Below are positions 3,031 to 52,823 of a stretch of DNA of 55,019 bases, in pieces; the stretch's first letter is position 1; each line of letters starts with the position of its first letter. The DNA is from a bacterium (GTDB taxonomy: Bacteria; Patescibacteriota; Gracilibacteria; Peribacterales; Peribacteraceae), in assembly GCA_027592135.1 (NCBI GenBank), contig JAQCIJ010000004.1, positions 1-55,019 on the forward strand, in the 5' to 3' direction. Made by a program: the position numbers and the translations under genes. Below the pieces are notes generated by a model. The model worked only from the letters and a program-made list of their open reading frames with translations, did no database searches and had not been told where the DNA came from.

Positions 3031-4161
3031 ATTTTTCTCTAAAATATCAAGAAATAACTGAGTATGATCTTCTGCTACCACCCCCCAACTCCGTCCATCA
3101 ATCTTCTTTGAAGCAGCTTCAGCAATAAACTCATATCCTTGCTTCACCCGATTGATCTCTTCGACAATTTTTTTCACAGAAGAAAGATCTGCAGCAACCA
3201 TACCTTGGCGCAATGATTCACTGAGTCCGTTTTGATCAGTAAGCAACACCGGAAGTCCTACAGACCGCGCTTCGAGTGCTGTGTTCGGGCTGATATCAGT
3301 AAGTGAAGGCAAGACGAGAAGATCATGCTTCCCAAAAATTTCATACTTCTCTTTTCCGGTAAGCGGAGCGACAAAACGAATACGGGTATCCAGACCCAAA
3401 CGTTCTACAATTTTACGAAGCATAATATCCTGTGGCCCGTCACCGACAATCGTCAGTAGTGCATCTGGAATTTGCGCAACTGCTTCTATAAGTGTTGGGA
3501 TCTGTTTAAAGTGTACAAATCGACCCAAAAAGAGAAGCCGAAACGGCTTTTGTTGTACGTGATGCTCCATAGGTACAACCATCTCCAGCTCCAGTGCATT
3601 TTCGATAACAGAATGTGAAGGTAGTTTCTTATAGGCATCTGTATAAATACATTTCTGAAAATCCGTCGAAAATACAACGTGATCAAATGATCGTATCAAT
3701 AAACTAACGAACCAACGAACCAACGAACCAACGAATCCTTGCGACACATACCACTCCCGCAACCCCTTTCCTCCTCCGAAGTCCGTGTACCGTTCCCAGA
3801 AAAAGTCTCCACCAAGTCGAAGTACCCTCTTAGGTTTTTTGAGTCCTGATAGCATCAGAGGAACTCCGCAGCTAATCGAAGAGAATGCATACACTACGTC
3901 CGCATCACTCCCAATCTCTCGTAGCTTCTTTGCATATTGAAACCAACGAAGTAGCGGGATAGATCTTGATACACTTTCCACTTTCCACTTCTTGTCGGCC
4001 ATAGCCTTGGCGTCGGCTGATCCACTTTCTGTCTTTGCGCCGTAGGTAACAACAACCACCTCATGCCCTTTCTTTGTAAGGCGGTCAGCAAGTTGGCGAC
4101 AATACGTCGCAGGTCCTCCTATTTGTGGAGGATAAATACCCGTTGCTAAAACAATGTTCAT
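3025..4161 (-). CDS. Family 4 glycosyltransferase with internal octamer tract and repeat insertion
   Basis: 378-residue GT-B glycosyltransferase. The N-terminus has the nucleotide-sugar GT pattern (ATGIYPPQIGGPATY); the donor half has LLFLGRFVHFKQIPTLIEA, LTIVGDGPQ and the loop DISPNTALEARSVGLPVLLT, where aspartate stands at the first EX7E position. Two oddities lie inside the gene: an octamer microsatellite at 3706-3735, and a 46-bp element at 3978-4023 that encodes SADAKAMADKK and recurs in another GT gene (14135-14180). Its ATG overlaps the stop of the recombinase gene (ATGA at 4158-4161), so its translation is coupled to the recombinase. Confidence 0.88.
   Translation of the reverse strand: MNIVLATGIYPPQIGGPATYCRQLADRLTKKGHEVVVVTYGAKTESGSADAKAMADKKWKVESVSRSIPLLRWFQYAKKLREIGSDADVVYAFSSISCGVPLMLSGLKKPKRVLRLGGDFFWERYTDFGGGKGLREWYVSQGFVGSLVRWFVSLLIRSFDHVVFSTDFQKCIYTDAYKKLPSHSVIENALELEMVVPMEHHVQQKPFRLLFLGRFVHFKQIPTLIEAVAQIPDALLTIVGDGPQDIMLRKIVERLGLDTRIRFVAPLTGKEKYEIFGKHDLLVLPSLTDISPNTALEARSVGLPVLLTDQNGLSESLRQGMVAADLSSVKKIVEEINRVKQGYEFIAEAASKKIDGRSWGVVAEDHTQLFLDILEKNS
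3706..3735. repeat. Octamer microsatellite (AACGAACC)3.75 inside a GT gene
   Basis: Three perfect AACGAACC units plus six more matching bases, inside the coding sequence of the GT at 3025-4161. The unit is not a multiple of three, so gain or loss of one copy shifts the frame. The same octamer occurs in the epimerase gene at 44258-44286. Confidence 0.9.
3978..4023. repeat. 46-bp interspersed element, copy 1 (encodes SADAKAMADKK)
   Basis: Matches 14135-14180 at 42 of 46 positions, with the shared core GGCCATAGCCTTGGCGTCGG. Both copies lie in frame within otherwise unrelated parts of GT4 genes and read on the minus strand as ADAKAMA followed by lysines. Confidence 0.85.
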
Positions 4162-4970
4162 AAGGGGCTCTTGATATTTTTTAAAGCGAGGTTCGTAACC
4201 TGAGTATAGCGTTGTGTCGTGCGAATGTTACTGTGTCCAAGAAGTGCCTGCACATAACGAATATCTGTTCCATTTTCTAACAGATGGGTGGCAAAACTAT
4301 GACGAAGTGAATGAAAAGTTGCTGGCTTGATAATATCTGCCCTGAGTAATGAACGCTTAAAAACTGCTTGCAAAGAACGTTCTGTCATTTTTCCACCAAA
4401 CTGACTAGGGAAAAAAAATTCCTGTGCTGTTTTTCCATGAGAGAATGCACGCAATTTATCGCAAAGAGATGCTGGAATAATGCTCACACGATCTTTATCA
4501 CCCTTTGCATGTTTAAGGTAAATTGTGAGCTGCTCACAATCAATATCAGCAACACGAAGAGAAACAACCTCACTAATCCGCAAGCCAGCACCGTAGGCAA
4601 GTGCAATCATAGTTCTGTGTTTTGTATTTTCTACAGAATCTATAATACGTGCTATGTCTGATCTAGATAATACAACCGGTAATCGCTGATGTGTTTTTGC
4701 AAGACGCAGATTCACTGCGCACGAAGTAGACATAATATGCCTGTAGAAATACTGAATGGAATGCAATGCAATATTCGCTGTTCGAGATGATTTTCCAGAA
4801 TCAAGCACATGAAGCAAATACGCCTTTATATTCTCAACATCCGGCTGCTCTAACCCTGTTTTTTTGTACTGAAAATACTGCCGAAGAGCACCTGTATATG
4901 CCAAAATTGTCTTTCGACTATAGTTTCTCAGCCGAAGCTCCTGTTCAAATTTGTTAAGTAGATTTTCCAA
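4158..4970 (-). CDS. Tyrosine recombinase, XerC/D-IntI-like integrase
   Basis: 270-residue site-specific recombinase. The N-terminal SAM-like DNA-binding domain (about 1-90) is followed by the catalytic domain with all active-site residues: R131 (AGLRISE), K156 (HAKGDKDR), H220 and R223 (HSLRHSFATHL), H246 (LLGHSN), nucleophile Y255 (TTQRY). QRLPVVLSRSD and the C-terminal KSPL resemble integron integrases, but the roughly 20-35 residue insertion between the K and HxxR boxes that defines IntI is absent (SLCDKLRAF runs almost directly into EFFFPSQ). The start is TTG at 4970, with -10 TATTAT on the minus strand 9 nt upstream inside the attI-like repeat. It is transcribed away from the cassettes, as intI genes are. 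A plain XerC/D role is the alternative. Confidence 0.92.
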   Translation of the reverse strand: MENLLNKFEQELRLRNYSRKTILAYTGALRQYFQYKKTGLEQPDVENIKAYLLHVLDSGKSSRTANIALHSIQYFYRHIMSTSCAVNLRLAKTHQRLPVVLSRSDIARIIDSVENTKHRTMIALAYGAGLRISEVVSLRVADIDCEQLTIYLKHAKGDKDRVSIIPASLCDKLRAFSHGKTAQEFFFPSQFGGKMTERSLQAVFKRSLLRADIIKPATFHSLRHSFATHLLENGTDIRYVQALLGHSNIRTTQRYTQVTNLALKNIKSPL

Positions 4971-13145: not shown

Positions 13146-14315
13146 TTACCCCGTAATACTAAAAAGATCCTGATACTTCTTCCCCACAATCTTCCAATCA
13201 AACACCTCCTCTATCCTTTTCCTCGCTGCCTCTCCCATCATCCTGCGCTTAGCAGGGTCATCAAGAAGTCTTGCAACATGTGCACGCAAAGCCCCACGAT
13301 CTCCCGCAGGAAAACACAGTCCAGAGACACCATTTTGCACGAGATAGGTATTGCCACCAACGGCAGAGACAATGCACGCACAACCACTACTCATCGCTTC
13401 CATAACGGCATTACTCAACCCCTCACTGTGACTTGGCATTACAAAAATATCTGTAGCAGCGAGTACTTCTGGAATATCATGACATAGCCCAGTAAATTTC
13501 ACCTCTCTCTGATATTCTTCTACGAGAGGGTGATTATCTTTATACCATCCAACAACTTGCAGCTTAAGCATCGTATACTCCGCCTTCAGGGGAACAAGTG
13601 CAGCCAAGAAATCATCCACTCCTTTAATGGATTCAAGTCGACCAACATAGGAAACTGTGATTTGTGATTTGTGATTTTTGTTGGGTTGCTCATCACTCGT
13701 AACTCGTAACTCGTAACTCGTAACATCTATCCCCGTCGGTATCACCTCCGTCTTCTTATGAATCAAAAGTCGTCGAAGCAAACATGTTGGCTGTGGATGA
13801 AACGTCACAACGCGAGAAGCGCAGAGAAGAATCAACCACCCTCCAGTCCATGCATAAATCGCAGCGCACACTTTCGGAAGCCATCCTCTCGGCCACCAAT
13901 TCATTCCCACAAAGGCATCCGTCAGTACCAAAACTTTATAACCAGTTAGCCGCAAAGCAATCACACTAAACGACGTCCAAAATAATAATTTATTACACAC
14001 AATATGATCGGGCTTCTCCTTCTTAATAAGCTTGCGAACATACCCCGTAAACCCAAAAGCAATCCCGTAGTTCCATGGATCTGGTAAAAAAACATCCTGC
14101 ATCCGATGAATCTCGAGAGTCTGCGAAACTTTTTCCACTTTCCGTTTCTTGCCGGCCATAGCCTTGGCGTCGGCTGGTCCGTTTTCCACTGTACTCATAC
14201 AAATAACGATAACCTTAAAGCCTATTCGCTGCCAAAGTTCTGCAAGTTTTACTGAACTCACCATCCAGCGATGCTCCTCTTTCCAATACGGACTAATAAG
14301 TAAAATAGTTTTCAT
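13146..14315 (-). CDS. Family 4 glycosyltransferase with two heptamer tracts and repeat insertion
   Basis: 389-residue GT-B glycosyltransferase. N-terminal ILLISPYWKEEHRW; donor half has VSYVGRLESIKGVDDFLAALV, LQVVGWYKD, FTGLCHDIPEVLAATDIFV and EX7E in SEGLSNAVMEAMSSGCACIVS. Three insertions mark the gene: the 46-bp element (14135-14180, peptide PADAKAMAGKK), a (CTCGTAA)4 tract (13696-13723) and a (GTGATTT)3 tract (13657-13677), the last two forming a low-complexity linker between the two domains. They read in frame here. The upstream DUF2304 gene ends 5 nt away, so it is co-transcribed. Confidence 0.9.
   Translation of the reverse strand: MKTILLISPYWKEEHRWMVSSVKLAELWQRIGFKVIVICMSTVENGPADAKAMAGKKRKVEKVSQTLEIHRMQDVFLPDPWNYGIAFGFTGYVRKLIKKEKPDHIVCNKLLFWTSFSVIALRLTGYKVLVLTDAFVGMNWWPRGWLPKVCAAIYAWTGGWLILLCASRVVTFHPQPTCLLRRLLIHKKTEVIPTGIDVTSYELRVTSDEQPNKNHKSQITVSYVGRLESIKGVDDFLAALVPLKAEYTMLKLQVVGWYKDNHPLVEEYQREVKFTGLCHDIPEVLAATDIFVMPSHSEGLSNAVMEAMSSGCACIVSAVGGNTYLVQNGVSGLCFPAGDRGALRAHVARLLDDPAKRRMMGEAARKRIEEVFDWKIVGKKYQDLFSITG
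13657..13723. repeat. Two heptamer microsatellites (GTGATTT)3 and (CTCGTAA)4
   Basis: 13657-13677 has three perfect 7-bp units, 13696-13723 four perfect 7-bp units, both inside the inter-domain linker of one GT gene. Neither unit is a multiple of three. Confidence 0.9.
14135..14180. repeat. 46-bp interspersed element, copy 2 (encodes PADAKAMAGKK)
   Basis: 42 of 46 bases identical to 3978-4023; in frame within a second GT4 gene at a comparable N-terminal position. Confidence 0.85.
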
Positions 14316-22152: not shown

Positions 22153-22914
22153 ATGTCTGGACACAGTAAATGGTCATCCATCAAACATAAAAAAGGTGCT
22201 GCTGATGCAGCGCGTGGAAAAGTATTCACCAAACATGCAAAGTTAATAGAAATTGCCGCACGCGAAGGAGGCAGTGGGGATTTGATGATGAATGCATCAC
22301 TCAAAGCTGCAGTCGAAAATGCAAAAGCATCTAACGTACCAAATGCCAACATTGATCGATCGATTAAGAAGGGAACAGGAGAGCTCAAAGGAGATGTAAC
22401 GATAGGTGTTACCTACGAAGCATATGCCCCAGGCGGAACTGCACTAATTATTGAATGCCTCACGGATAACAAAAACCGCACACTCCCAAACGTACGGAGC
22501 ATTGTAGAAAAGCGTGGAGGAAAAATGGCAGAGTCTGGATCGGTGATGTTTATGTTTACGCAAAAAGGAGTGGTAATAGGGAGTAGGGGGTCGGGGGTAG
22601 GGGGTAGGGATGATGATGAAATCGAGTTGGCGTTAATAGATAGCGGTGCAGAGGATATTGAATGGTCAGAGGATATGGTTACCGTCACGACAGACATCAA
22701 CTCTTGGACTAGTGCGAGAGATACATTGAAAAAAGCAGGGTTAGAAGTAAAAGAAGCAGGAATGAAGCTTGTTCCTCTACAAGAGGTAACCATTGATGAT
22801 CTGGAAGCAGCTCAGAAACTCATGGATTTAATTAGTGCGATAGAAGAAGATGAAGACGTTGCAGATGTACATACCAATGCAGACATTAGTGATGCTGTGG
22901 CATCACAATTATAA
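22153..22914 (+). CDS. yebC: YebC/TACO1-family protein
   Basis: 253 residues. N-terminal MSGHSKWSSIKHKKGAADAARGKVF is the signature; NIDRSIKKGTGE and YEAYAPGGTALIIECLTDNKNRT follow. Family members bind ribosomes to ease translation of proline-rich stretches or act as regulators. A heptamer microsatellite (22583-22610) replaces the usual loop after FTQKGVV with a glycine/serine/arginine run (GSRGSGVGGRDDDE), in frame. Probably in the rpsF transcript; 43 nt separate it from rpsR. Confidence 0.93.
   Translation: MSGHSKWSSIKHKKGAADAARGKVFTKHAKLIEIAAREGGSGDLMMNASLKAAVENAKASNVPNANIDRSIKKGTGELKGDVTIGVTYEAYAPGGTALIIECLTDNKNRTLPNVRSIVEKRGGKMAESGSVMFMFTQKGVVIGSRGSGVGGRDDDEIELALIDSGAEDIEWSEDMVTVTTDINSWTSARDTLKKAGLEVKEAGMKLVPLQEVTIDDLEAAQKLMDLISAIEEDEDVADVHTNADISDAVASQL
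22583..22610. repeat. Heptamer microsatellite (GTAGGGG)4 inside yebC
   Basis: Units GTAGGGG, GTCGGGG, GTAGGGG, GTAGGGA. The tract encodes a flexible Gly-rich loop; a one-unit change would truncate YebC. Confidence 0.85.
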
Positions 22915-22926
22915 AATAAAGCAATT

Positions 22927-22960
22927 TTGAAATATTGAAAACTTTCTTTCAACATTTCAA
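22927..22960. repeat. AT-rich palindrome between convergent yebC and PBP genes
   Basis: TTGAAATATTGAAA pairs with TTTCAACATTTCAA (one mismatch, 6-nt loop). Related palindromes occur at 41618-41648 and 45019-45050. It may end transcription from both sides, although it is not GC-rich. Confidence 0.7.
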
Positions 22961-22970
22961 AATTTCAACA

Positions 22971-25900
22971 TTAATCAATGGTTAGTGCCCGAATATCCTC
23001 ACTACTATTGCCCGACGTATCAATCGCTTTTACTTTGAGCTGATAGACTCCTGGCTCTTCGGTGATTGTGTAATCCAGTACGTATGGCTCTTTGGGCTTT
23101 GTCGTAAGTAAAGTGTTGCCGAGATAGAACTGGACATACTTGATGCCTCCCTCTTGGTCCTGTGCATCGACTTCCATATGTAGCGTCCCCCGTTTAGGTA
23201 ATCGGATATCCCCCTCTGGGAGAATAATATTAATCTGTGGAGCACGTTCGTCTTTTTCAAAAGAAAAGCTTACTCGAGAAGTCGCTTTGTTGTAATACTC
23301 ATCAGTCAATTCGATAGACAATACATGCTGACCAGATTCTGTGATAGAACTTGGAACACGAATGAGTTGAGTAAATGGTTCGGTATCTACCTTTACAACT
23401 TTCTTGCCATCAATGGAGTACACAACAGAAAGTACTTTAGCCTTAGAATCGATCTTCAGCTTTGGCTTAAACGTCGGATACGTTGCAGTGCCATTCGGTG
23501 CTGGTACTACGATGTGTACAGAAGGCTTTTCCAGTCGTCCAGGAGTGAGTGCCAGTGTGCAGTTTTCTGTCGGAGCAATTGGCATTGGCAGAAGTGCACC
23601 TGAGTGATCTGGGGCGGCGTACCATAGCTCCATTTGCTCTCCCACCCACTTTTGCACCCCCTCTTCCCAAGTGGGCCAACGGTCTGGAAGCAAACTATGT
23701 GCAGCGATAAAGCTTCCTTCCTCCTGAGCATCAATAGGACATTCTTCTGATGCAAGAAGCCGCGTTACCTTATCAATAGTTAACTGTACACATGCAGGGT
23801 CTTGTAATTTTGGAGCACGTTCTTGCAAAAACACATCTGCACGTCGATATGCTACCGGTGTACATGTTGTCGGAAACTCACCAGACAATGTAGAAATCTG
23901 CGGAGTAATAAGCCCCTCTGGCTTCGTAAACTCCGTCTTAGGATTTTCGAATGTACGATGCACCGCAGCCATATAATCTCTCCAGATAGGACTTGCCGTA
24001 TTAAGGCCTCCAGCTCTGTCGTACATCGCCGCAGAGTTTGCATTTCCTACCCACACACCAGTAACAAGATTTGGTGTGTACCCAATAAGCCATGCATTAT
24101 CGGGCTTACGCAAAATGCATGCTTTGCGCTTTTTACCAGGGATAAGGTCCCCTGTTTGCGTGTCGTATACCTGAACATCTTTCCACTCGAGACACTTGTT
24201 ACTGGTTCCTGTTTTTGCAGCAGTTTTAAATCCTGGAATAGTAAGCTGTGTCTTCCAGTACTCTTCTGGTCTGACAGATTCATCACTCAACACCGAAGTA
24301 ATCTGATACGCGATACGTTCGTCGAGAACTTCTTTTCCATCACTATCATCTTCTGTAATAAACAAAATGTTTCCCTTCCTATCTGTTACCTTGCGAATAC
24401 TGATCACATCCTTAGCTCGCCCTCCACGTGCAATTGCACCATACGCATTTACCATTTCGAGAAGTGGTGTTTCTGCAGCCCCCAGTGCAAGAGGCCATCC
24501 ATATTCAAATTCACCACGCTCGAGTTGCAACTCTTCTTTTCGAGCAAGTGGTGTTGGCGCTCCGAGTGAAGCAACAAGTGTAAGAATTTCATTCTCTTCG
24601 CCTCCAAGAAAATATGCTTTAGCAGCAGGAACATTACGGGAGGCTCCAAGGGCACTCCGCATCGTCATCAGACCTAAAAATTTTGCATCAAAGTTCTGTG
24701 GTTCATCATCACCAATTTTTGTGGGAACATCATAGATAGGAGTTGCTGGGCTATACCCCTTTTGGAATGCTGATGCATACACAAATGGCTTAAACGAAGA
24801 CCCTGGCTGACGTGGAGAACGTGCCATATCAATCTTTCCTCCTTTCTCTGTATCGTTATAATCCATGTTTCCGACATACGACAAGATTTCATTTGTCTCT
24901 GGATCTATCGCAACAAGTGCCATATTCTCTCCACCATATCGCAGCACAAGATCTTCTCGGTGGCGTTCTATTGTACTTTCTGCGCGCTGCTGCATATCCC
25001 AATCTAGAGACGTCTCTATGCGCAAACCTCCTTGCTCTAGCAGGCCTTCTTCGGAGGTACCTGCAAACATCTCTTCGACTTGCTCGCGTACCCACAAGAC
25101 AAAGTGAGGAGCACGGATATCTTCACGTGAAGGCTCAAATGTCATCTCTTCTAACTCTTCTAAAGCCTCAAGGCGCTGCGCTTCTGTTATAAATTCCTGA
25201 TTCTGCATGTTACGCAATACCTGATCTGTTCGACCTCCTATATAGAGAAGTGCAGATCCTGTTCCTGCGTAGCCTCCCAGTAGTCCAATAGTAATATTTT
25301 CTGGTTGGATATCTGAAACCCTGGTAATAGAACCATCGATAATTCCCTGATGTATGTGATCATCAACTTCTGTGTGTACATGTACTCCATACGGACTAAA
25401 GTATGATGGCCGCTGTGGAAGCGATGCAAGAATCGCAGACTGAGCAAGGGTAAGCTTATCTGCTGTAGTATTAAAATAACGCTTTGCAGCTTGCTCGACA
25501 CCGTACGCATTGCGACCAAAAGGAATCCAGTTAAGATACAGCTCTAAAAGCTCTTCTTTTTCAAATTGCCCTTCGAGCTGACATCCAAGAATAAATTCTT
25601 TAATTTTTCGTTGGTAGCGATTTTCCTCCTGCAGGTTGAGCGCATTACGCGCTAACTGTCTGGTAATAGTAGAGCCTCCACCAGCACGTCCAAGTCTAAA
25701 TACCACACGGGCAATAGCACGCACATCCAAACACCCACGGGTATAAAATCGTTCATCTTCAATAGCAATTGCTGCACGCTTTGTATGAATTGGAATACTA
25801 CTTCCAGGAATAAATGTACGATCTTCTTCATTAAACAATCGATACAACTCTATACCGTTACGATCCGTGATAACTGTGCTCTGTGAAGCAAGTAAACTTG

Positions 25901-31285: not shown

Positions 31286-31312
31286 ATGTTTATTGATAGT
31301 AGCCGAAGACAC

Positions 31313-31384
31313 GTTTGAAAGTTTGAAAGTAAAATGTTTGACCATACTAGCATTCAAACCTTCAAACCTTCAAACCTTCAAACA
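31313..31384. repeat. Octamer repeats (GTTTGAAA)2 and (TTCAAACC)4 upstream of the DUF1858 gene
   Basis: 31313-31328 has two GTTTGAAA units, 31353-31384 four TTCAAACC-type units. They are complementary to each other and could form a stem across the promoter region of the DUF1858 gene. Confidence 0.85.
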
Positions 31385-31437
31385 TTTTGTAGGGCAAGTT
31401 ACGACTTTTTCTTGAAGGCAGTGTAGTATGTGCTGGT

Positions 31438-40223: not shown

Positions 40224-41585
40224 CTAATACCGATAATGATCTGGCTTATATGGGCCATCAACTGGAACACCCATGTACTCCGCTTGATCTTGCGTAAGCG
40301 TCGTCAATTTCACGCCAAGTTTATCAAGGTGTAAACGAGCGACCTCTTCGTCTAACCTCTTCGGCAGACGATAGACTCCTACTTTATAGTTATCGGTATG
40401 TTGCCACAGTTCTATTTGGGCAAGAACTTGATTCGTAAATGAGGTACTCATCACAAAGCTCGGATGTCCAGTTGCACAGCCAAGATTTACTAAACGTCCT
40501 TTGGCTAAAATCAAAATTGATCTACCACTATCCTTGAACGTGTAGCGATCTACTGCACCCTCTTTTTCTCCTTTGATTTCATCTTTTGTTACTCGACCAG
40601 CAGCAACTTCTGCGTCGAGCCAAGCTATGTCAATCTCGGTATCAAAGTGACCAATGTTACAGAGGATTGCATCCTCGGACATGTGCACCATATGCTCCCC
40701 CTTAATAATGTCTTTGTTCCCTGTGGTCGTTACAAACAAGTTTCCTTCCTTGCAAGCAGCTTCCATAGTGGTGACCTCGAAACCTTCCATTGCAGCTTGT
40801 AGTGCGTTGATAGGGTCGATCTCTGTGACAAGGACACGGCAACCATAACGCTGCAAGCTTTGCGCACACCCTTTTCCAACATCTCCGTATCCACACACCA
40901 CAGCAACTTTACCGGCAAGCATAATATCCGTTGCGCGCTTTACGCCATCTGCCAAAGATTCACGGCATCCATATAAGTTATCAAATTTACTTTTTGTTGC
41001 GCTGTCATTCACATTGATAGCAGGTACTTTTAATCCACTGCTTTTACTTAACACTTCTAGGCGGTGGATCCCCGCTGTCGTCTCTTCGCTTACGCCTTTA
41101 ATGTCACCTAACATCTCTGGGAATTTTTCGTGCACCATCGCGGTTAAATCTCCACCATCATCGAGAATCATATTGAGCGATTTGCCACCCTCAAAAGCAG
41201 TAAGCGTTTGCTCTATACACCAATCAAACTCTTCGTTATTTAGGCCTTTCCAAGCAAATACAGGAAACCCCGCTTTAGCAATTGCACAGGCAGCATGGTC
41301 TTGGGTGCTAAAAATATTACAACTACTCCAGCTTACTTCTGCGCCAAGTATCGCCAGTGTTTCGATAAGCACTGCTGTCTGAATAGTCATATGGAGACAA
41401 CCGGCAATACGAGCACCTGCAAGAGGTTGCAGTGGTCCATATTTTTCACGCAACGCCATAAGTCCTGGCATTTCATTCTCTGCCAAAGCAATTTCTTTGC
41501 GGCCAAATGCAGCCAATCGTTCAAACTCCTCAGCGGAGCAATCGAGAACTTTGTAGGGGAGGGTGGGGTGAGTGGTGTGTGACAC
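40224..41585 (-). CDS. ahcY: Adenosylhomocysteinase
   Basis: 453 residues, usual for the long bacterial form. Seen: [59 protein letters not shown] site [16 protein letters not shown], and C-terminal [11 protein letters not shown]. It splits S-adenosylhomocysteine into adenosine and homocysteine. The start is GTG at 41585; TACAAT (minus, 41592-41597) lies 6 nt before it. The kinase encoded directly upstream probably removes the adenosine. Confidence 0.97.
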
Positions 41586-41656: not shown

Positions 41657-42604
41657 TCATTTCATCATTGGTAAGTGCTCTCCATACACCTCCTCTGCCC
41701 TAGCCCAAACAGCATCCCGATCAACATGATCTATCAAGGTACCTTCAATTTCGACAGCGAGTGACCCCATAGCATTTCCGAGTCGCAAAGAATCTATCAA
41801 AGACCATTCAGATTGGAGTCCTGCCAAGAACCCTGCACGAAATGCATCTCCAGCTCCAGTAGGATTAACGACTTGATCTGGAGTACATGGTCCCACATTA
41901 AGCGCTCCCTCTTTTGAGAAGCACGTGACACCTGCGTCACCACGAGTAACAATCACCATAGAGGTTGTTTCAAGAGCACTTTGCTCATCAATACCTAATC
42001 GATCCGTAATCAGTCCCCATTCATACTCATTCGCAATTACTCCTTCACTATGCTCTACACCAAAGCGTAGTTCGTCATCAGAAAGCGCTAATACTTGCTG
42101 ACCAGGATCAAAGAAAAACGGCACTTTGTACTCTGTACACCACCTGATTCCTTCCATCATTAGTACGGCATTACGCGGGCTAATAATCGCATGAGAAATT
42201 TCTTCTCGCCTGTCTAAAAGGTCGGGAAATGAGCCATCGGCATCAGCCCCTGGATGAAAAAACGTAATCTGACGTGCCGAGCTATCCGTTCCAATAATTG
42301 CGGTAGCGGTAGCAGCGGTCTGTAGCTGCTCTACATACTCTATGGAAATACCACGATTCTCCAGAAGGTTTCTGTATTCAATACCATCTGATCCAACGGT
42401 TGTTACCAGCATTGGGTCTTTTCCGAGCAAGTTTAAGCTCCATGCAATGTTTGCCGCAGTCCCTCCATGATGCCTAGCAAAATGTGGAGCAAAAAAACTT
42501 ACCGCAAGAGTATCGAGTGCTGATGTATCAATAGCGTCCGCAAATGAGCCATTATAACCCAAAAGGAGGTCGTATGCTGTTGAACCGTTTACTAAGATCT
42601 TCAT
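41657..42604 (-). CDS. PfkB-family carbohydrate/nucleoside kinase, probable adenosine kinase
   Basis: 315 residues. Ribokinase-fold marks: HHGGTAANIAWSLNLLG near the N-terminus and the anion-hole/catalytic NPTGAGDAFRAGFLAGL near the C-terminus. In the archaeal/bacterial group that includes adenosine kinases the GGTAxNxA motif is typical. Placement directly upstream of ahcY on the same strand suggests it phosphorylates the adenosine released by AhcY; sugar kinase is the alternative. TATCAT (minus, 42611-42616) is 6 nt before the ATG. Confidence 0.85.
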   Translation of the reverse strand: MKILVNGSTAYDLLLGYNGSFADAIDTSALDTLAVSFFAPHFARHHGGTAANIAWSLNLLGKDPMLVTTVGSDGIEYRNLLENRGISIEYVEQLQTAATATAIIGTDSSARQITFFHPGADADGSFPDLLDRREEISHAIISPRNAVLMMEGIRWCTEYKVPFFFDPGQQVLALSDDELRFGVEHSEGVIANEYEWGLITDRLGIDEQSALETTSMVIVTRGDAGVTCFSKEGALNVGPCTPDQVVNPTGAGDAFRAGFLAGLQSEWSLIDSLRLGNAMGSLAVEIEGTLIDHVDRDAVWARAEEVYGEHLPMMK

Positions 42605-42698
42605 ACGCTAATGATAACACTAGAAGAAGGGCTAGTAGCTAGTAGTTAGGGGGTTTTTTGCTAACTACTCACTACAAACCCCTGCTAAACTGCCATAG
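42605..42698. promoter_or_regulatory. Bidirectional promoter repeat, copy 1
   Basis: 94 bp between divergent kinase and UGD genes. Leftward extended -10 TGTTATCAT ends 6 nt before the kinase ATG; rightward extended -10 TGCTAAACT (42683-42691) ends 7 nt before the UGD ATG. In between is a hairpin AGTAGTTAG/CTAACTACT. An inverted copy, about 85 of 94 positions identical, fills 47630-47722. Confidence 0.85.
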
Positions 42699-44036
42699 AT
42701 GAAGATCGCCGTCATCGGTACCGGCTACGTAGGACTCGTTTCCGCTGTGTGTTTCGCAGAATTGGGACACGAGGTCTTTGGAGTAGATATAGACGAAGAG
42801 AAAGTACGAAAACTCCAAGGTGGTATCAGTCCTATCTACGAACCAGAGCTCGAAGAACTTCTCAAGAAAAACCTCGAAGCAGGCACCGTAAAATTTACAA
42901 CAGATCTTGCAGAGGCACTCCCAGATACTCAGGTCGTATTTTCTGCAGTAGCCACACCACCCAACGAAGACTTTTCTGCTGATTTGAAGGCAGTATTTAT
43001 TGTTGCTGAGTCTGTCGCAAAACTTGCAGATCACAATATTGTATTCGTAAACAAATCGACAGTACCTGTAGGAACAGGAAAAAAGTGCGAAGAAGTAATC
43101 GCCAAGGCACTTGCAGGTCGCAAAGTCGACTACAAGATTCCTGTTATCTCTAATCCGGAGTTTTTACGAGAAGGACATGCAATAAGCGACACCATGCAGC
43201 CAGATCGTATCGTTGTTGGCATGAACGAGAATGGATGGGCGAAGCAAACAATGGAAGAACTATACGTTCCACTTACACGAACGTCGCAACCTATTGTATG
43301 GATGTCTCGCGAGAGCTCGGAAATCGTAAAGTATGCAAGCAATGGATTTTTGGCAAACAAAATTTCGTTTGCCAACATGCTCTCGGAACTCTGTGAAGCG
43401 ACAGGAGGAAACGTTCGCGATGTCACAAAGGGAATGGGATTAGATAATCGTATTGGTCCTCGGTTTTTACAATCCGGAATTGGATACGGTGGAAGCTGTT
43501 TCCCAAAAGATGTAAAAGCACTGATCGCACTATCCCGAGAAACAGGGGTGCCACTTCCATTAATCCAGGCAACACACGATATAAACCAGCACCAGCGCGA
43601 ACGCTACTTCAAAAAAATACTCGATGCACTTCCAGCCGAAGGTGCTACAGTCGGTATTTGGGGTTTATCATTTAAACCACGTACCGATGACATGCGTGAG
43701 GCACCAAGCTTGGATCTGATTCCACTTCTGACAAAAGCGGGTCACACTGTGCAGGCATATGACCCTGTGGCAATGGAGAATGCAAAAAACATCATCAAAC
43801 AACGGGGGGATCCCTCCCCGCATTCCGAAGAAATTCGATGGTGTCAAAGCCCAATGAAAGCTGCAGAAAATGCTGATGCCGTAATAGTACTTACCGAGTG
43901 GGAAGAGTTCTGCAACACAGACCTTACTACGTTAAAACTTACCATGAAAGGTAATGACCTCTTTGATGGACGAAATATTTACGAGCCTGCAGAGGTAAAA
44001 GAAGCAGGACTCCAGTACCATGGCATTGGACTATGA
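42699..44036 (+). CDS. ugd: UDP-glucose 6-dehydrogenase
   Basis: 445 residues. NAD site GTGYVGLVSAVCFAELGHEV (7-26), NKSTVPVGTG, PEFLREGHAI, the family's NGFLANKISFANMLSELCE, active-site C267 in GYGGSCFPKD, and C-terminal WGLSFKPRTDDMREAPS. It oxidises UDP-glucose to UDP-glucuronate. The 4-nt overlap with the following epimerase indicates a two-step path to UDP-galacturonate. Confidence 0.96.
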   Translation: MKIAVIGTGYVGLVSAVCFAELGHEVFGVDIDEEKVRKLQGGISPIYEPELEELLKKNLEAGTVKFTTDLAEALPDTQVVFSAVATPPNEDFSADLKAVFIVAESVAKLADHNIVFVNKSTVPVGTGKKCEEVIAKALAGRKVDYKIPVISNPEFLREGHAISDTMQPDRIVVGMNENGWAKQTMEELYVPLTRTSQPIVWMSRESSEIVKYASNGFLANKISFANMLSELCEATGGNVRDVTKGMGLDNRIGPRFLQSGIGYGGSCFPKDVKALIALSRETGVPLPLIQATHDINQHQRERYFKKILDALPAEGATVGIWGLSFKPRTDDMREAPSLDLIPLLTKAGHTVQAYDPVAMENAKNIIKQRGDPSPHSEEIRWCQSPMKAAENADAVIVLTEWEEFCNTDLTTLKLTMKGNDLFDGRNIYEPAEVKEAGLQYHGIGL

Positions 44037-45013
44037 AAATACTTTTGACAGGATCGGCTGGATTCATTGGATTCCACACGGCAAAGATGCTCCTCGAGCG
44101 TGGAGACACTGTCATAGGATTCGATAACTTTAACGAGTACTACGACCCAGAACTAAAGAGAGCACGAAATAAAATTTTAGAAGGATACGATAATTTCACA
44201 ATCATTCGCGGAGATTTGAAGAATGTTGATGATCTAAAAAAAGCCTTTAACCTACTCAACGAACCAACGAAGCAACGAACCAACGATGAAACCCGTGTCT
44301 GTCACCTCGCAGCCCAAGCTGGCGTGCGTCACTCTATAGAGAACCCAGATATTTTTATTCAGGATAATATCCAAGGAACAAACAACATCTTCGAGCTCTG
44401 CAAAGAATACAACGTCGGCGGAGTAACCTACGCAAGTAGTAGCTCTATTTACGGAGATAACGAACAGAGTCCATTTAAAGAAGAGCACAAAGCAGACAGC
44501 CCAATGTCTTTGTATGGAATGACAAAAAAATGTAACGAACTACAGGCCTACACATATCACAGTCTGCACGGAGTAAAGAGCACGGGACTCCGGTTCTTTA
44601 CAGTCTACGGCCCTTACGGTAGACCTGACATGGCACTGTTCCTATTTGCCAACTGGATAACGAAAGGAGAACCAATGCAGATCTTCGGTGAAGGAAAGAT
44701 GCAACGCGACTTTACGTTTGTAGAAGATATCGCAGCAGGCATTGTTGCCGCACTCGATAAAAACTACGACTATGAAATCTTTAACCTCGGAGGAGGAAAA
44801 ACAGAAGAACTCATGGATTACATCACCACACTCGAGAAAGCACTGGGTAAAGTTGGAGAGAAAGAAATGCTCCCGATGCAACCGGGTGACGTGGTATCAA
44901 CTTCAGCAGATATCTCTAAAGCACAAAAGATGCTCGGGTATAATCCACAAACACAAATTGCAGAAGGGATTCCAAAGTTTGTAGAGTGGTATAAACAATA
45001 TTATCAATGTTGA
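44033..45013 (+). CDS. NAD-dependent epimerase, probable UDP-glucuronate 4-epimerase
   Basis: 326 residues, extended SDR. TGSAGFIGFHTAKMLLERGD, NFNEYYDPELKRARN, YASSSSIYGDNEQSPF, YGMTKK (catalytic Y and K), GLRFFTVYGPYGRPDM, matching the glucuronate epimerase group (YGPxGRPDM). Immediately downstream of ugd (ATGA overlap), so UDP-glucuronate is the likely substrate. An octamer tract (44258-44286) lies between the first Rossmann strands, encoding NEPTKQRTND. Confidence 0.93.
   Translation: MKILLTGSAGFIGFHTAKMLLERGDTVIGFDNFNEYYDPELKRARNKILEGYDNFTIIRGDLKNVDDLKKAFNLLNEPTKQRTNDETRVCHLAAQAGVRHSIENPDIFIQDNIQGTNNIFELCKEYNVGGVTYASSSSIYGDNEQSPFKEEHKADSPMSLYGMTKKCNELQAYTYHSLHGVKSTGLRFFTVYGPYGRPDMALFLFANWITKGEPMQIFGEGKMQRDFTFVEDIAAGIVAALDKNYDYEIFNLGGGKTEELMDYITTLEKALGKVGEKEMLPMQPGDVVSTSADISKAQKMLGYNPQTQIAEGIPKFVEWYKQYYQC
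44258..44286. repeat. Octamer microsatellite (AACGAACC)3.5 in the epimerase gene
   Basis: AACGAACC, AACGAAGC, AACGAACC, then AACGA: same octamer as in the GT gene at 3706-3735, here on the coding strand. One-unit change would truncate the enzyme. Confidence 0.9.
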
Positions 45014-45018
45014 AATTC

Positions 45019-45050
45019 TGAAATATTGAAAACCCTCTTTCAACATTTCA
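45019..45050. repeat. AT-rich palindrome between convergent genes
   Basis: TGAAATATTGAAA/TTTCAACATTTCA, one mismatch, 6-nt loop, just after the epimerase stop and before the convergent membrane gene. Confidence 0.7.
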
Positions 45051-45063
45051 ACATTGCTGCATT

Positions 45064-46254
45064 TCAAAATTTCCTAATCCACACCTCCTGTCCAATATTC
45101 TCTATTTGATAAAACCCATACCCAGAAACTCCAGGACAAGCATCTAAACACACGACTGCTTTTGCCTTCGAAAGAAGCGAAGGACGATAACGCAATATCG
45201 GAGAAGTGCTCTCATACTGCCAGCTATGACTAAAGTTTCCAGAGATCAACACAACACCTTCACTGGATAATTGGTTCACCTGATGCATAACTATGCGTGC
45301 ACTAGAGTTATAAAATTCAAGTTGTGTGTGTGCAAAGATAAATACTGCTGTGACGATTTGCATCGCAAGAAGTGTTGCGGATTTCTTAAGGACACCAGGA
45401 CTTGCTATTACTCCACCTATAAGAAGTGGCAAAAAGAGCACCGGGTAATACACACGATACGACGTAACATGAAAAGCGCAGACAAGTACGAAGCTTAACA
45501 GTAATGGCCAATGCTTTGCTCTTATAATTCCCAAAAGACCAAGCACAGAAAGCACACCACTCCCCGCCCACAGCCAAGACGTTGCAGTGAGCTGCACAAG
45601 ATCTATCAAGGGCTGTCCGACATTTTGTCCTCCAGCATTCATAAAACTTGCAGCAGCCAGTGGGTTGGATGCGATATATAATGTAACAAGGAGAAGGGGT
45701 ATACCAATAGCAAGTGCACTGCGAATAGGATGGACTTTTGCCTTCCAGAAAATAGCGATAACAATCGGGAGATATAACACTGCTTGGTATGCAGTGAAAA
45801 GTGACACCAACCAAAACAATGCAACCCATCCGAGAATATACTGATTTCCCAATTTCCCAATTTCCCAATTTCTTAGTAATAACCACACCAACACCAATCC
45901 CTGCAACGCCGTAAGCACCGCCATCATTACTGTTCCCGATTGAAATAGTACCGATGCACAAAAGATCCACAGTCCACACAATGTAAGCCTGTTCTCTGGT
46001 GACATACCTTTTGCCATACGTGCAATCAGCCATACGGCCTGGACAAGAAGTGTGGCGAATACAACGCGCATCAACATTTCTTGATACGGCAATGCTTCTG
46101 TTAGATTAATAATGCCACGCGCGAGTGGCGGATGTGGATACGGAATATTCAGAAGATACTTTGCCTCATCCGTATGCACAGCACCAAGCCCACGATACAG
46201 CGCCAGCAAGACTGCATACCCTTCTATGCCGATGAGTATTAGAAGTCTTCGCAT
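45064..46254 (-). CDS. Polytopic membrane protein, probable GT-C glycosyltransferase
   Basis: 396 residues, about ten hydrophobic segments. After the first helix the loop VHTDEAKYLLNIPYPHPPLARGI contains an acidic D-E pair followed by PHPPL, the arrangement of PMT/ArnT-like enzymes that use lipid-linked sugars. The ATG at 46254 is inside the overlap with the preceding gene (16 nt). An octamer tract (45845-45872) lies in a cytoplasmic loop (NWEIGKLGNQ). The GT2-GtrA protein encoded two genes upstream would supply and flip the donor. Confidence 0.8.
   Translation of the reverse strand: MRRLLILIGIEGYAVLLALYRGLGAVHTDEAKYLLNIPYPHPPLARGIINLTEALPYQEMLMRVVFATLLVQAVWLIARMAKGMSPENRLTLCGLWIFCASVLFQSGTVMMAVLTALQGLVLVWLLLRNWEIGKLGNQYILGWVALFWLVSLFTAYQAVLYLPIVIAIFWKAKVHPIRSALAIGIPLLLVTLYIASNPLAAASFMNAGGQNVGQPLIDLVQLTATSWLWAGSGVLSVLGLLGIIRAKHWPLLLSFVLVCAFHVTSYRVYYPVLFLPLLIGGVIASPGVLKKSATLLAMQIVTAVFIFAHTQLEFYNSSARIVMHQVNQLSSEGVVLISGNFSHSWQYESTSPILRYRPSLLSKAKAVVCLDACPGVSGYGFYQIENIGQEVWIRKF
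45845..45872. repeat. Octamer microsatellite (TTTCCCAA)3.5 in the polytopic protein gene
   Basis: Three perfect units plus TTTC, 28 bp, inside the coding sequence. Confidence 0.9.
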
Positions 46255-46550
46255 GTAGATAAGAGACCAGTAGAAAAATAGACGTTGTAACACGAGATGG
46301 GATCTTCTCCACGAACATACGACCGGTAGTGAAGTTGAATTTTCTCGGCATCGATAGCGCCAATAGAAACACCAGATAATAACCAACCTTCGCGCTTTGC
46401 TGTCGCCTGAATAAGCGTCTGCGTACGACTACGCAAAGCAGGGTCTGTGTACAGAGGGAGCAATGTCCACAAGCGACAGGCAAGTGCAAATGTAATCACC
46501 GCAACAGTGATCCAAAAGATAGGCCACTGATGAGAGTTTAGTTTTTCCAT
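46239..46550 (-). CDS. Small single-helix membrane protein, unknown function
   Basis: 103 residues: one N-terminal helix (WPIFWITVAVITFALACRLWTLL) and an extracytoplasmic domain of about 70 residues with KIQLHYRSYVRGEDPISCYNVYF and a second cysteine near the C-terminus (STGLLSTCEDF), perhaps a disulfide. It overlaps the GT2 gene by 13 nt and the polytopic gene by 16 nt, so the three are translated as a unit. No family recognised; it may be a partner of the polytopic enzyme. Confidence 0.75.
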   Translation of the reverse strand: MEKLNSHQWPIFWITVAVITFALACRLWTLLPLYTDPALRSRTQTLIQATAKREGWLLSGVSIGAIDAEKIQLHYRSYVRGEDPISCYNVYFSTGLLSTCEDF

Positions 46551-47629
46551 GCTACAAATCTACTCATTGTATAATTCCATACTACACCCGTAAACGCACC
46601 AATGATCACTGCAGCAAGATCCACCCATCCAAGAGAAAATAAGTACGAACTTACTGCATAGTTTGCTACAGCACCAAATGCGCACGCAAAATTATATTTT
46701 CCAAACCCTATAAGCATCGCCATTCCTCTTAATCTGGACACTGCAAAGGTCCATACATTATTAACGTAAAAGTTAAAGATGATCGCTACTTCGATAGCGG
46801 CTAACACTGCAATACGAAAGCCAAATAACGAGAGCTCCTCTCCAGACTGCAAAACAGATGATGCAGCTACGTACGTACCAAGATGCACGAGCACTCCGAA
46901 GGCACCCACGATGCAATACTTCAGAAATGTCAGTGGGATATACCGACCAACTGTTACATCGTATAAGTACTCCACAAATTCGATCTGCACACGACGCGAT
47001 AACTTACTCTCTCCATGAAGCCGTGTAGAAAACGTAAACGGAACTTCTTGTACCGTTGTATCTTTCGGCACACACACCAATAAATCGAGTAAAATTTTAA
47101 ATCCCTTTGGGTTTAGATGTCGCGCGGCGTTCTGAAACAGATCGTTGCGCAAGGCGAAAAAACCACTCATCGGGTCACTCGCTTTTACGTTACACACAGC
47201 TAGTGCCATTTTTGTAGCAACGCGACTCATGAGGTGACGTCGCTCATCCCACTCTCCAACACTTCCTCCGGGTACGTATCGCGAACCAATAGCGATACCA
47301 CTTCCTTCTTGAATTGCACTGTAGAGCTTCGGCAAGATATCCATATCGTGTTGTCCGTCTGCATCCATCACAGCAAGTACATCACCTTTTGCAGAAAGAA
47401 AGCCTTCGATAACTGCAGAAGAAAGCCCTCTGCGTCCTACACGACGTATGACATGTACATCATCTAATTTCTGCCCTAGCTCTTGAGCAATTCTCCATGT
47501 CTCATCTGGGCTGTCATCATCTACAATGATGATTTCATGAGGAATGCCTTTAAGAGTCTCTTCTAGCTTTGGTAATAGCTCGGGCAGATTCTCCGATTCG
47601 TTATAGGTGGGGAGTATTAAAGAAAGCAT
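46538..47629 (-). CDS. GT2 polyprenyl-phosphate sugar synthase fused to GtrA domain
   Basis: 363 residues. Residues 1-225 are a DPM1-like GT2 (LSLILPTYNESENLPELL, VDDDSPDETW, VMDADGQHDMDILPKLY, DPMSGFFALRND, KGFKILLDLLV). Residues about 235-360 are a four-helix GtrA module (FLKYCIVGAFGVLVHLGTYVA ... FNFYVNNVWTF ... WNYTMSRFVAWKN), thought to flip lipid-phosphate sugars. So it makes and may translocate the donor for the polytopic protein in the same operon. TACGCT (minus) lies 7 nt before the ATG within the promoter repeat. Confidence 0.93.
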   Translation of the reverse strand: MLSLILPTYNESENLPELLPKLEETLKGIPHEIIIVDDDSPDETWRIAQELGQKLDDVHVIRRVGRRGLSSAVIEGFLSAKGDVLAVMDADGQHDMDILPKLYSAIQEGSGIAIGSRYVPGGSVGEWDERRHLMSRVATKMALAVCNVKASDPMSGFFALRNDLFQNAARHLNPKGFKILLDLLVCVPKDTTVQEVPFTFSTRLHGESKLSRRVQIEFVEYLYDVTVGRYIPLTFLKYCIVGAFGVLVHLGTYVAASSVLQSGEELSLFGFRIAVLAAIEVAIIFNFYVNNVWTFAVSRLRGMAMLIGFGKYNFACAFGAVANYAVSSYLFSLGWVDLAAVIIGAFTGVVWNYTMSRFVAWKN

Positions 47630-47722
47630 TGCTACTAGCGTAGCAGGGGTTTGGAGTAAGTAGTTAGCAAAAACCCCCTAACTACTAGCTACTAGCCCCT
47701 TGTTCAGTGTTATCATTAGCCT
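47630..47722. promoter_or_regulatory. Bidirectional promoter repeat, copy 2 (inverted)
   Basis: 93 bp between divergent GT2-GtrA and epimerase genes; the reverse complement of 42605-42698 with few differences and one indel. Rightward extended -10 TGTTATCAT (47708-47716) ends 6 nt before the epimerase ATG; leftward TGCTACGCT ends 7 nt before the GT2 ATG. Confidence 0.85.
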
Positions 47723-48649
47723 ATGAAAATCTTAGTTACAGGCTCCTCCGGCACAATCGGTACTAGACTTTGCGAAAAGCTCTTATCAGCAGGTCACGAG
47801 GTAATAGGAGCTGATTGGGAACCTTGTAAGTGGAATAAAGAAGTAGAAAATCTGAGGATTGATATCGACCTACGTCATAAAGATGAATGTGATACATTGC
47901 CTACAGACAGCGATCTGATTATTCACCTAGCGGCAAATGCTCGTGTCTATGAACTTGTCGAGCACCCAGAAAGAGCAATGGATAACTTTATTGATACCTT
48001 TAATATCCTTGAGCATGCACGCAAGAATGGCATCAAAAAAATGATGTTCGCTTCTTCTCGTGAGACCTACGGAAACATTCACCTTCCAGAAGGAGAGAAG
48101 TACACAGAAGACAAAGCACACTTTATGACCTGCGAGAGCCCATACACTGCAAGTAAGATCGGTGGAGAGGCATTATTTGAGGCCTACAAGAGGTGTTACC
48201 AGATTGATACGATTATCTTCCGGTTCTCCAATGTCTACGGCATGTACGACGATTCTATTCGTGTCGTTCCCCTCTTCTACAGGCAGGCAAAAGCAAACGA
48301 GCCTATGAAAGTATTTGGAAAAGACAAGTGCCTCGACTTTACGTACATCGATGACTGCGTCGATGGAATAGTGCTTGCGGTAGAAAACTTTGAGTCTGCC
48401 AAAAACGACACCTACAACTTAGCCTTCGGAGAAGGAACAACCATCATGCATCTCGCGGAGAAAGTTGTAGAGCTGCTCGGAAGTAGCTCCACAATAGAGG
48501 CTACAAACAGTCGCACGGGAGAAGTAACGCACTATATTGCTGATATCTCTAAAGCCAAAAAAGCCTTCGGATATAATCCTAAAACCAACTTCGAAGACGG
48601 AATTCGCAAGAGTATGGAGTGGTATGAGGCAAATGCTGATACAAAGTAA
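47723..48649 (+). CDS. NAD-dependent sugar epimerase/dehydratase
   Basis: 308 residues, extended SDR. TGSSGTIGTRLCEKLLSAGHEV, LIIHLAANARVYELVEHPERAMDN, MFASSRETYGNI, catalytic YTASK, RFSNVYGMYDDS, CLDFTYIDDCVDGI. The glycine motif has GTIG instead of GFIG. It acts on a nucleotide sugar, probably for the same surface glycan as its neighbours; GDP- or UDP-hexose cannot be told apart. Confidence 0.9.
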   Translation: MKILVTGSSGTIGTRLCEKLLSAGHEVIGADWEPCKWNKEVENLRIDIDLRHKDECDTLPTDSDLIIHLAANARVYELVEHPERAMDNFIDTFNILEHARKNGIKKMMFASSRETYGNIHLPEGEKYTEDKAHFMTCESPYTASKIGGEALFEAYKRCYQIDTIIFRFSNVYGMYDDSIRVVPLFYRQAKANEPMKVFGKDKCLDFTYIDDCVDGIVLAVENFESAKNDTYNLAFGEGTTIMHLAEKVVELLGSSSTIEATNSRTGEVTHYIADISKAKKAFGYNPKTNFEDGIRKSMEWYEANADTK

Positions 48650-52717: not shown

Positions 52718-52724
52718 TACGGCA

Positions 52725-52730
52725 ACTATA
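52725..52730 (-). promoter_or_regulatory. -10 box of leaderless gtrA promoter
   Basis: Minus strand TATAGT, 7 nt before the ATG at 52717. Confidence 0.5.
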
Positions 52731-52789
52731 GGGAATCAAGGGAATCAAGGGAATCAAGGATCTTCGATTTCTTCGATTTCTTCGATTCC
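52731..52789. repeat. Two nonamer microsatellites (GGGAATCAA)3 and (TTCGATTTC)3
   Basis: 52731-52757 and 52763-52789, 27 bp each, between divergent gtrA and the UDP-sugar dehydrogenase. Copy change would alter promoter spacing rather than frame. Confidence 0.9.
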
Positions 52790-52823
52790 CTCACTCTCCT
52801 TCCATAGGTAGACTTCCTACACA

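Follow-up and report, generated by a model that had tools for sequence, protein, structure and literature searches.

An inverted duplication of a divergent promoter region within a sugar-nucleotide gene cluster of a Peribacteraceae bacterium

Introduction

Why do two intergenic spacers that lie 5 kb apart in one genome carry nearly the same sequence in opposite orientations? The question is raised by a window of 55,019 nucleotides (the whole stretch of DNA that was analysed) from a tiny, uncultured bacterium of the family Peribacteraceae, in which a sugar-nucleotide gene cluster contains two copies of a short element. An earlier note on this DNA had proposed that both copies are divergent promoters and that recombination between them would invert the segment that they enclose. 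Here we describe the extent and uniqueness of the duplication, the state of the two spacers in related genomes, and the origin that these observations favor.

Results

The PfkB-family kinase gene (41657–42604, minus strand; Pfam PF00294), which adjoins a gene for S-adenosylhomocysteine hydrolase (40224–41585) lying left of copy 1, is separated by that copy from ugd, which encodes a nucleotide-sugar (UDP-glucose 6-) dehydrogenase (42699–44036, plus strand; Pfam and NCBIfam TIGR03026). Then follow SDR1, an NAD-dependent sugar epimerase/dehydratase (44033–45013, plus strand; PF01370), two proteins without a Pfam match, and a family 2 glycosyltransferase with a C-terminal GtrA/DPMS membrane domain (GT2-GtrA, here GT2; 46538–47629, minus strand; PF00535 and PF04138). 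The first of the two Pfam-less proteins (45064–46254, minus strand) is conserved in the cluster and is a putative membrane protein, judging from its hydrophobic sequence; the second (46239–46550, minus strand) is small and also conserved. Copy 2 separates GT2 from SDR2, another NAD-dependent sugar epimerase/dehydratase (47723–48649, plus strand; PF01370).

Copy 1 (42591–42687, plus strand) comprises the kinase–ugd spacer and the first kinase codons, and copy 2 (47641–47736, minus strand) comprises, in inverted orientation, the SDR2–GT2 spacer and the first SDR2 codons. In a local alignment of 98 columns, copy 1 and the reverse complement of copy 2 are ~92% identical, with eight differences (three of them one-base indels) and a longest exact run of 30 bp; the earlier count of about 85 matching positions in 94 was right. 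Divergent start codons enclose each copy, at gaps of 94 bp (copy 1) and 93 bp (copy 2). On the kinase/SDR2 side the homology passes the start codons and reaches 42591 and 47736, at about codon 5, and part of this extension may be owed to the MKILV-GS start that the two proteins have in common. On the ugd/GT2 side it ends at TGCTA, within the −10 box.

When the element was searched against its own genome, the partner copy was found with E = 1.7e-28 (119 bits), and the next match was a 24-bp fragment (E = 0.002, 36 bits). The 1.12-Mb genome holds two full copies only, each the sole full partner of the other, and short fragments of the element's word family at other loci (L003–L008) are all that a search for further copies of the 94-bp unit, a possibility raised in the earlier note, returned. 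Among 11,781 pairs formed by 154 spacers from sampled stretches of the genome, with genes taken from a simple home-made gene caller, the two copies, at 128, are outscored only by a tRNA-gene pair; once tRNA genes and a paralogous ORF are set aside they rank first, and the next pair scores 69. A general rule that nearby spacers are alike was not found in this genome (4 of 529 near pairs and 65 of 11,252 far pairs at the lowest threshold). In our judgment, the duplication of this divergent promoter region in inverted orientation is real, unique, and recent.

Each of the four genes is preceded by a −10-like TANNNT hexamer: TATCAT before the kinase (42611–42616, minus strand) and before SDR2 (47711–47716, plus strand), both 6 nt from the ATG, and TAAACT before ugd (42686–42691, plus strand) and TACGCT before GT2 (47637–47642, minus strand), both preceded by TGC and 7 nt from the ATG. 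In the sampled stretches of the genome TANNNT is enriched 6–8 nt before divergent starts (at gap 6, in 14 of 82 divergent-start genes, with ~3 expected), so that all four hexamers lie at the genome-wide peak. Shine-Dalgarno-like motifs in the same sample are not above control (2/82, and 4/82 in the control stretch), and the congener G003 likewise shows a TANNNT peak and no excess of such motifs over control. A scan with the sigma-70 consensus was not above shuffles. The view that each copy is a divergent promoter is thus supported at the level of sequence, and the positions of the hexamers fit leaderless transcription, which would begin at the start codons themselves.

The center of each copy is an imperfect inverted repeat, recognized from folding and sequence (42629–42682 in copy 1 and 47646–47699 in copy 2). 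In both copies it consists of inner arms AGTAGTTAG and CTAACTACT and outer arms GGG(G) and CCC(C), and it is built on the word set CTAGTAG/TAGTTAG, fragments of which occur elsewhere in this genome and in the congener G002. If the starts are leaderless, the repeat lies upstream of all four transcripts and outside the mRNAs, so that a role as an attenuator or leader hairpin would be ruled out for the four genes, and any function of the repeat would be exerted at the level of DNA. An Rfam search of the element returned no family near its threshold.

Word hairpins of the kind seen in the central repeat are present in numerous spacers of the lineage. Spacers of the family are enriched in inverted repeats whose arms are tandem words, mostly of 7 nt (33 of 70 significant cases), and each genome uses its own words. 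In hairpin and tandem tests based on 19 shuffles per spacer and on small numbers, the proportions of spacers that passed were 24% and 31% in the present genome, 56% and 70% in G035, 64% and 55% in G051, and 14% and 5% in G003; coding stretches of the same genomes passed at ~2–8%, and little of either signal was seen in the small sample of spacers from other families. Spacer hairpins with arms of tandem 7–9 nt words (for example, CTTCAAACCTTCAAACC and GGGAATCAAGGGAATCAAGG) also occur in the window at 22907–22975, 45003–45071, 31286–31437, and 52718–52823. A tandem word, AACGAACCAACGAAGCAACGAACC, lies within the SDR1 coding sequence (44250–44294) and recurs at 3690–3742, and a 62-nt direct repeat (3968–4029 and 14125–14186, 85% identical; core TTGTCGGCCATAGCCTTGGCGTCGGCTG) has related sequence at loci L087 and L088. 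We considered whether the word hairpins form a regulon in G035, G051, and G027, and rejected this, as the neighbors of the other copies appear to be heterogeneous in both function and orientation. Within the literature open to search, the class appears to be undescribed for this group.

The kinase–ugd and SDR2–GT2 spacers also match each other in relatives. We compared the two spacers of each of 23 genomes with each other and with those of the other genomes, and found that they match in at least five genomes, with unrelated sequences: the element described here, word hairpins in G035 and G051, and a 34-bp palindrome in the congeners G003 and G004. Within-genome similarity reached 128 in the present genome, 106 in G051 (where the match is likewise inverted and includes the −10 region), and 79 in G035, and the cross-genome null did not exceed 67; G003 and G004 (score 38) and G027 (31) fall in the top few per cent of the comparison. 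The match in G027 is weak and is surpassed by those at other loci of the same genome. As the similarity was not above the null in 17 of the 23 genomes, such matching is frequent but not obligatory.

The palindrome has the form ACSGTAGCG-N16-CGCTACSGT. G003 and G004 contain exactly two copies each, at the kinase–ugd and SDR2–GT2 spacers, and six further genomes carry it at one of the two. All copies are exactly 34 bp long, although 23–48 bp was permitted in the search. The inner part covaries (20 double-changed cells, against a mean of 7.5 after shuffling, with 0 of 500 shuffles as high), in a control that retains sequence relatedness. The idea that the palindrome is specific to these two spacers is mostly true (10 of 14 copies over 74 genomes), but it also occurs at a gyrA–rsmI spacer and behind other genes. 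The former instance (locus L153; G054, contig C105, 22426–22459) lies between divergent gyrA-like and rsmI-like genes and is near-identical to the palindrome at the SDR2–GT2 spacer of the same genome.

A search with the kinase retrieved named relatives and places the window in the Candidatus Peribacter group. The congeners bear on the direction of copying. Their orthologous genes are mostly ~72–84% identical to those of the present genome at the DNA level, against ~92% for the two copies, which indicates either that the copies arose after the species diverged or that they have been homogenized. At the kinase–ugd spacer, G002, G003, and G004 carry the unrelated 34-bp palindrome and G001 carries a different spacer. 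At the SDR2–GT2 spacer, G003 and G004 carry the palindrome and G002 carries a homolog of the present element, which scores 71 against copy 2 and 65 against copy 1 (the two copies score 150 together); at the GT2 start, a 23-nt block of this homolog, CCCCTGCTACGCTAGTAGCAATG, agrees exactly with copy 2. In the present genome, codons 1 and 4 of both the kinase and SDR2 are ATG and TTA, and the congener kinases have a GTG start in three of four cases and CTC or CTT at codon 4 in all four, so that the copied tract apparently enters the first kinase codons. Gene trees of the genus are unresolved, and the GT2 tree places G003 nearer than G002, so the G002 homolog may have arisen in parallel or have been transferred. 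The kinase of G004 (L156) is 59% identical to that of the present genome and the adjoining genes are 82–90% identical, a difference that suggests replacement of the kinase gene.

Discussion

The simplest account of these observations, and most likely the correct one, is that copying ran from the SDR2–GT2 spacer to the kinase–ugd spacer in the lineage of the present genome. We think it probable, with real room for doubt, that both stretches go back to a single divergent promoter region of the leaderless type and that the kinase–ugd copy was derived from the SDR2–GT2 spacer by non-reciprocal inverted copying. The SDR2–GT2 spacer would have been copied, in inverted orientation, to a site 5 kb away, by ectopic gene conversion or by a template switch during replication, and the older kinase–ugd spacer would have been replaced by the new copy. 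If the sequence replaced was the 34-bp palindrome, the two spacers would have had in common, before the event, only the start-codon region at one end and ~4 bp (GCTA) at the other; homology this short would favor a template switch rather than RecA-type conversion. Template switching is a process that writes and repairs inverted repeats (Monttinen and Löytynoja, 2022; PMC8794818). The copy was perhaps kept because both gene pairs then have the same promoter strength or the same regulator.

Two other histories would give both spacers a common sequence without copying from one to the other, and we regard both as improbable. A dispersed hairpin element of the REP or MITE kind could have inserted independently into each spacer. 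Fragments of the same words do occur elsewhere (L003, L008, L010, and L011), word hairpins are dispersed in the family, and the genome has two Y1-type transposase genes; yet the homology exceeds the hairpin, taking in on one side the promoter and the opening codons, the other loci of the genome hold fragments at most, and the sequence read around the two Y1 genes contains no copy of the element. Slightly less probable still is an old regulon, in which both spacers always had the same operator and selection on a shared regulator, rather than copying, preserved the similarity. The nearly invariant outer 9-mers of the palindrome, its presence at one or both spacers in G003, G004, and the six further genomes, and the covariation of its inner part all speak for an operator. 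However, the operator of one regulator should stay recognizable, and the sequences at these spacers differ wholly between lineages; moreover, the identity in the present genome spans nearly the whole spacer rather than a motif alone, and the same palindrome stands beside gyrA, rsmI, and other genes.

The inversion proposed in the earlier note, in which recombination between the copies flips the 5-kb ugd–GT2 segment in part of the population, did not find support and is by far the least probable of these readings. Homologous recombination could be sustained by inverted copies that share 30 bp without a mismatch, and none of the genes would lose its own −10 or start; but a flip that leaves all promoters intact would not alter expression. 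We examined the 44 family genomes in which the kinase and GT2 lie on one contig within 20 kb, which are MAG consensus sequences in which a minor inverted fraction is possible. The standard order and strand were found in 43, and the predicted inverted order in none, including genomes with matched spacers (the present one, G003, G035, and G051); in the exception, G050, the kinase and GT2 are convergent, an arrangement other than the predicted flip. No site-specific recombinase was found among the genes flanking the segment. Elsewhere, the genome encodes a resolvase on contig C49 and tyrosine recombinases on contig C22 and in the window at 4194–4670 (a tyrosine recombinase domain, minus strand).

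Copying from the SDR2–GT2 spacer remains our preferred reading for the present genome, and among the relatives the same two loci provide recurrent cases that are in part independent. Matching that recurs in this way suggests that copying has happened repeatedly, that shared regulation is selected for, or both. A broader rule, which we offer as a tentative and rather unlikely generalization, is that the two divergent promoter regions of the cluster evolve in concert across the Peribacteraceae: the central palindrome would have been repeatedly replaced by lineage-specific word hairpins and the spacers then equalized, so that the match is conserved and the sequence is not. Co-regulation of the two gene pairs, which the earlier note had attributed to a shared hairpin, is plausible, and the matched but unrelated elements in relatives lend indirect support to a shared input. 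A whole divergent promoter appears to have been copied, inverted, between neighboring loci of a small bacterial genome. Should selection act on the match, this pair of spacers offers a natural test of how regulation persists through sequence turnover.

In invertible phase-variation segments, the segment is flanked by inverted copies, as it is here; the present locus differs in that no recombinase lies beside the segment, no inverted state was seen, and the promoters would stay unchanged. REP/BIME elements with RAYT transposases are dispersed intergenic hairpins, and the present genome resembles such systems in its dispersed intergenic hairpins and its Y1-type transposase genes, a likeness drawn from these two features; in contrast, the 94-bp unit has only two copies, and none was seen beside the Y1 genes. 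The nearest report that we found to the word hairpins concerns the TAACTGA heptamer repeats of Beggiatoaceae, Cyanobacteria, and Bacteroidetes (MacGregor, 2015; PMC4679880). Those repeats are also mostly intergenic tandem 7-nt words, often near start codons, but one word, in direct repeats, was studied there, whereas here many words per genome form the two complementary arms of hairpins. Like the published cases of ectopic gene conversion and template switching (PMC8794818), the present locus shows a short stretch copied non-reciprocally in inverted orientation, and homogenized inverted repeats; it differs from them in that the mechanism is read from its product rather than observed, and in that the copying would have spanned 5 kb and taken in a whole divergent promoter.
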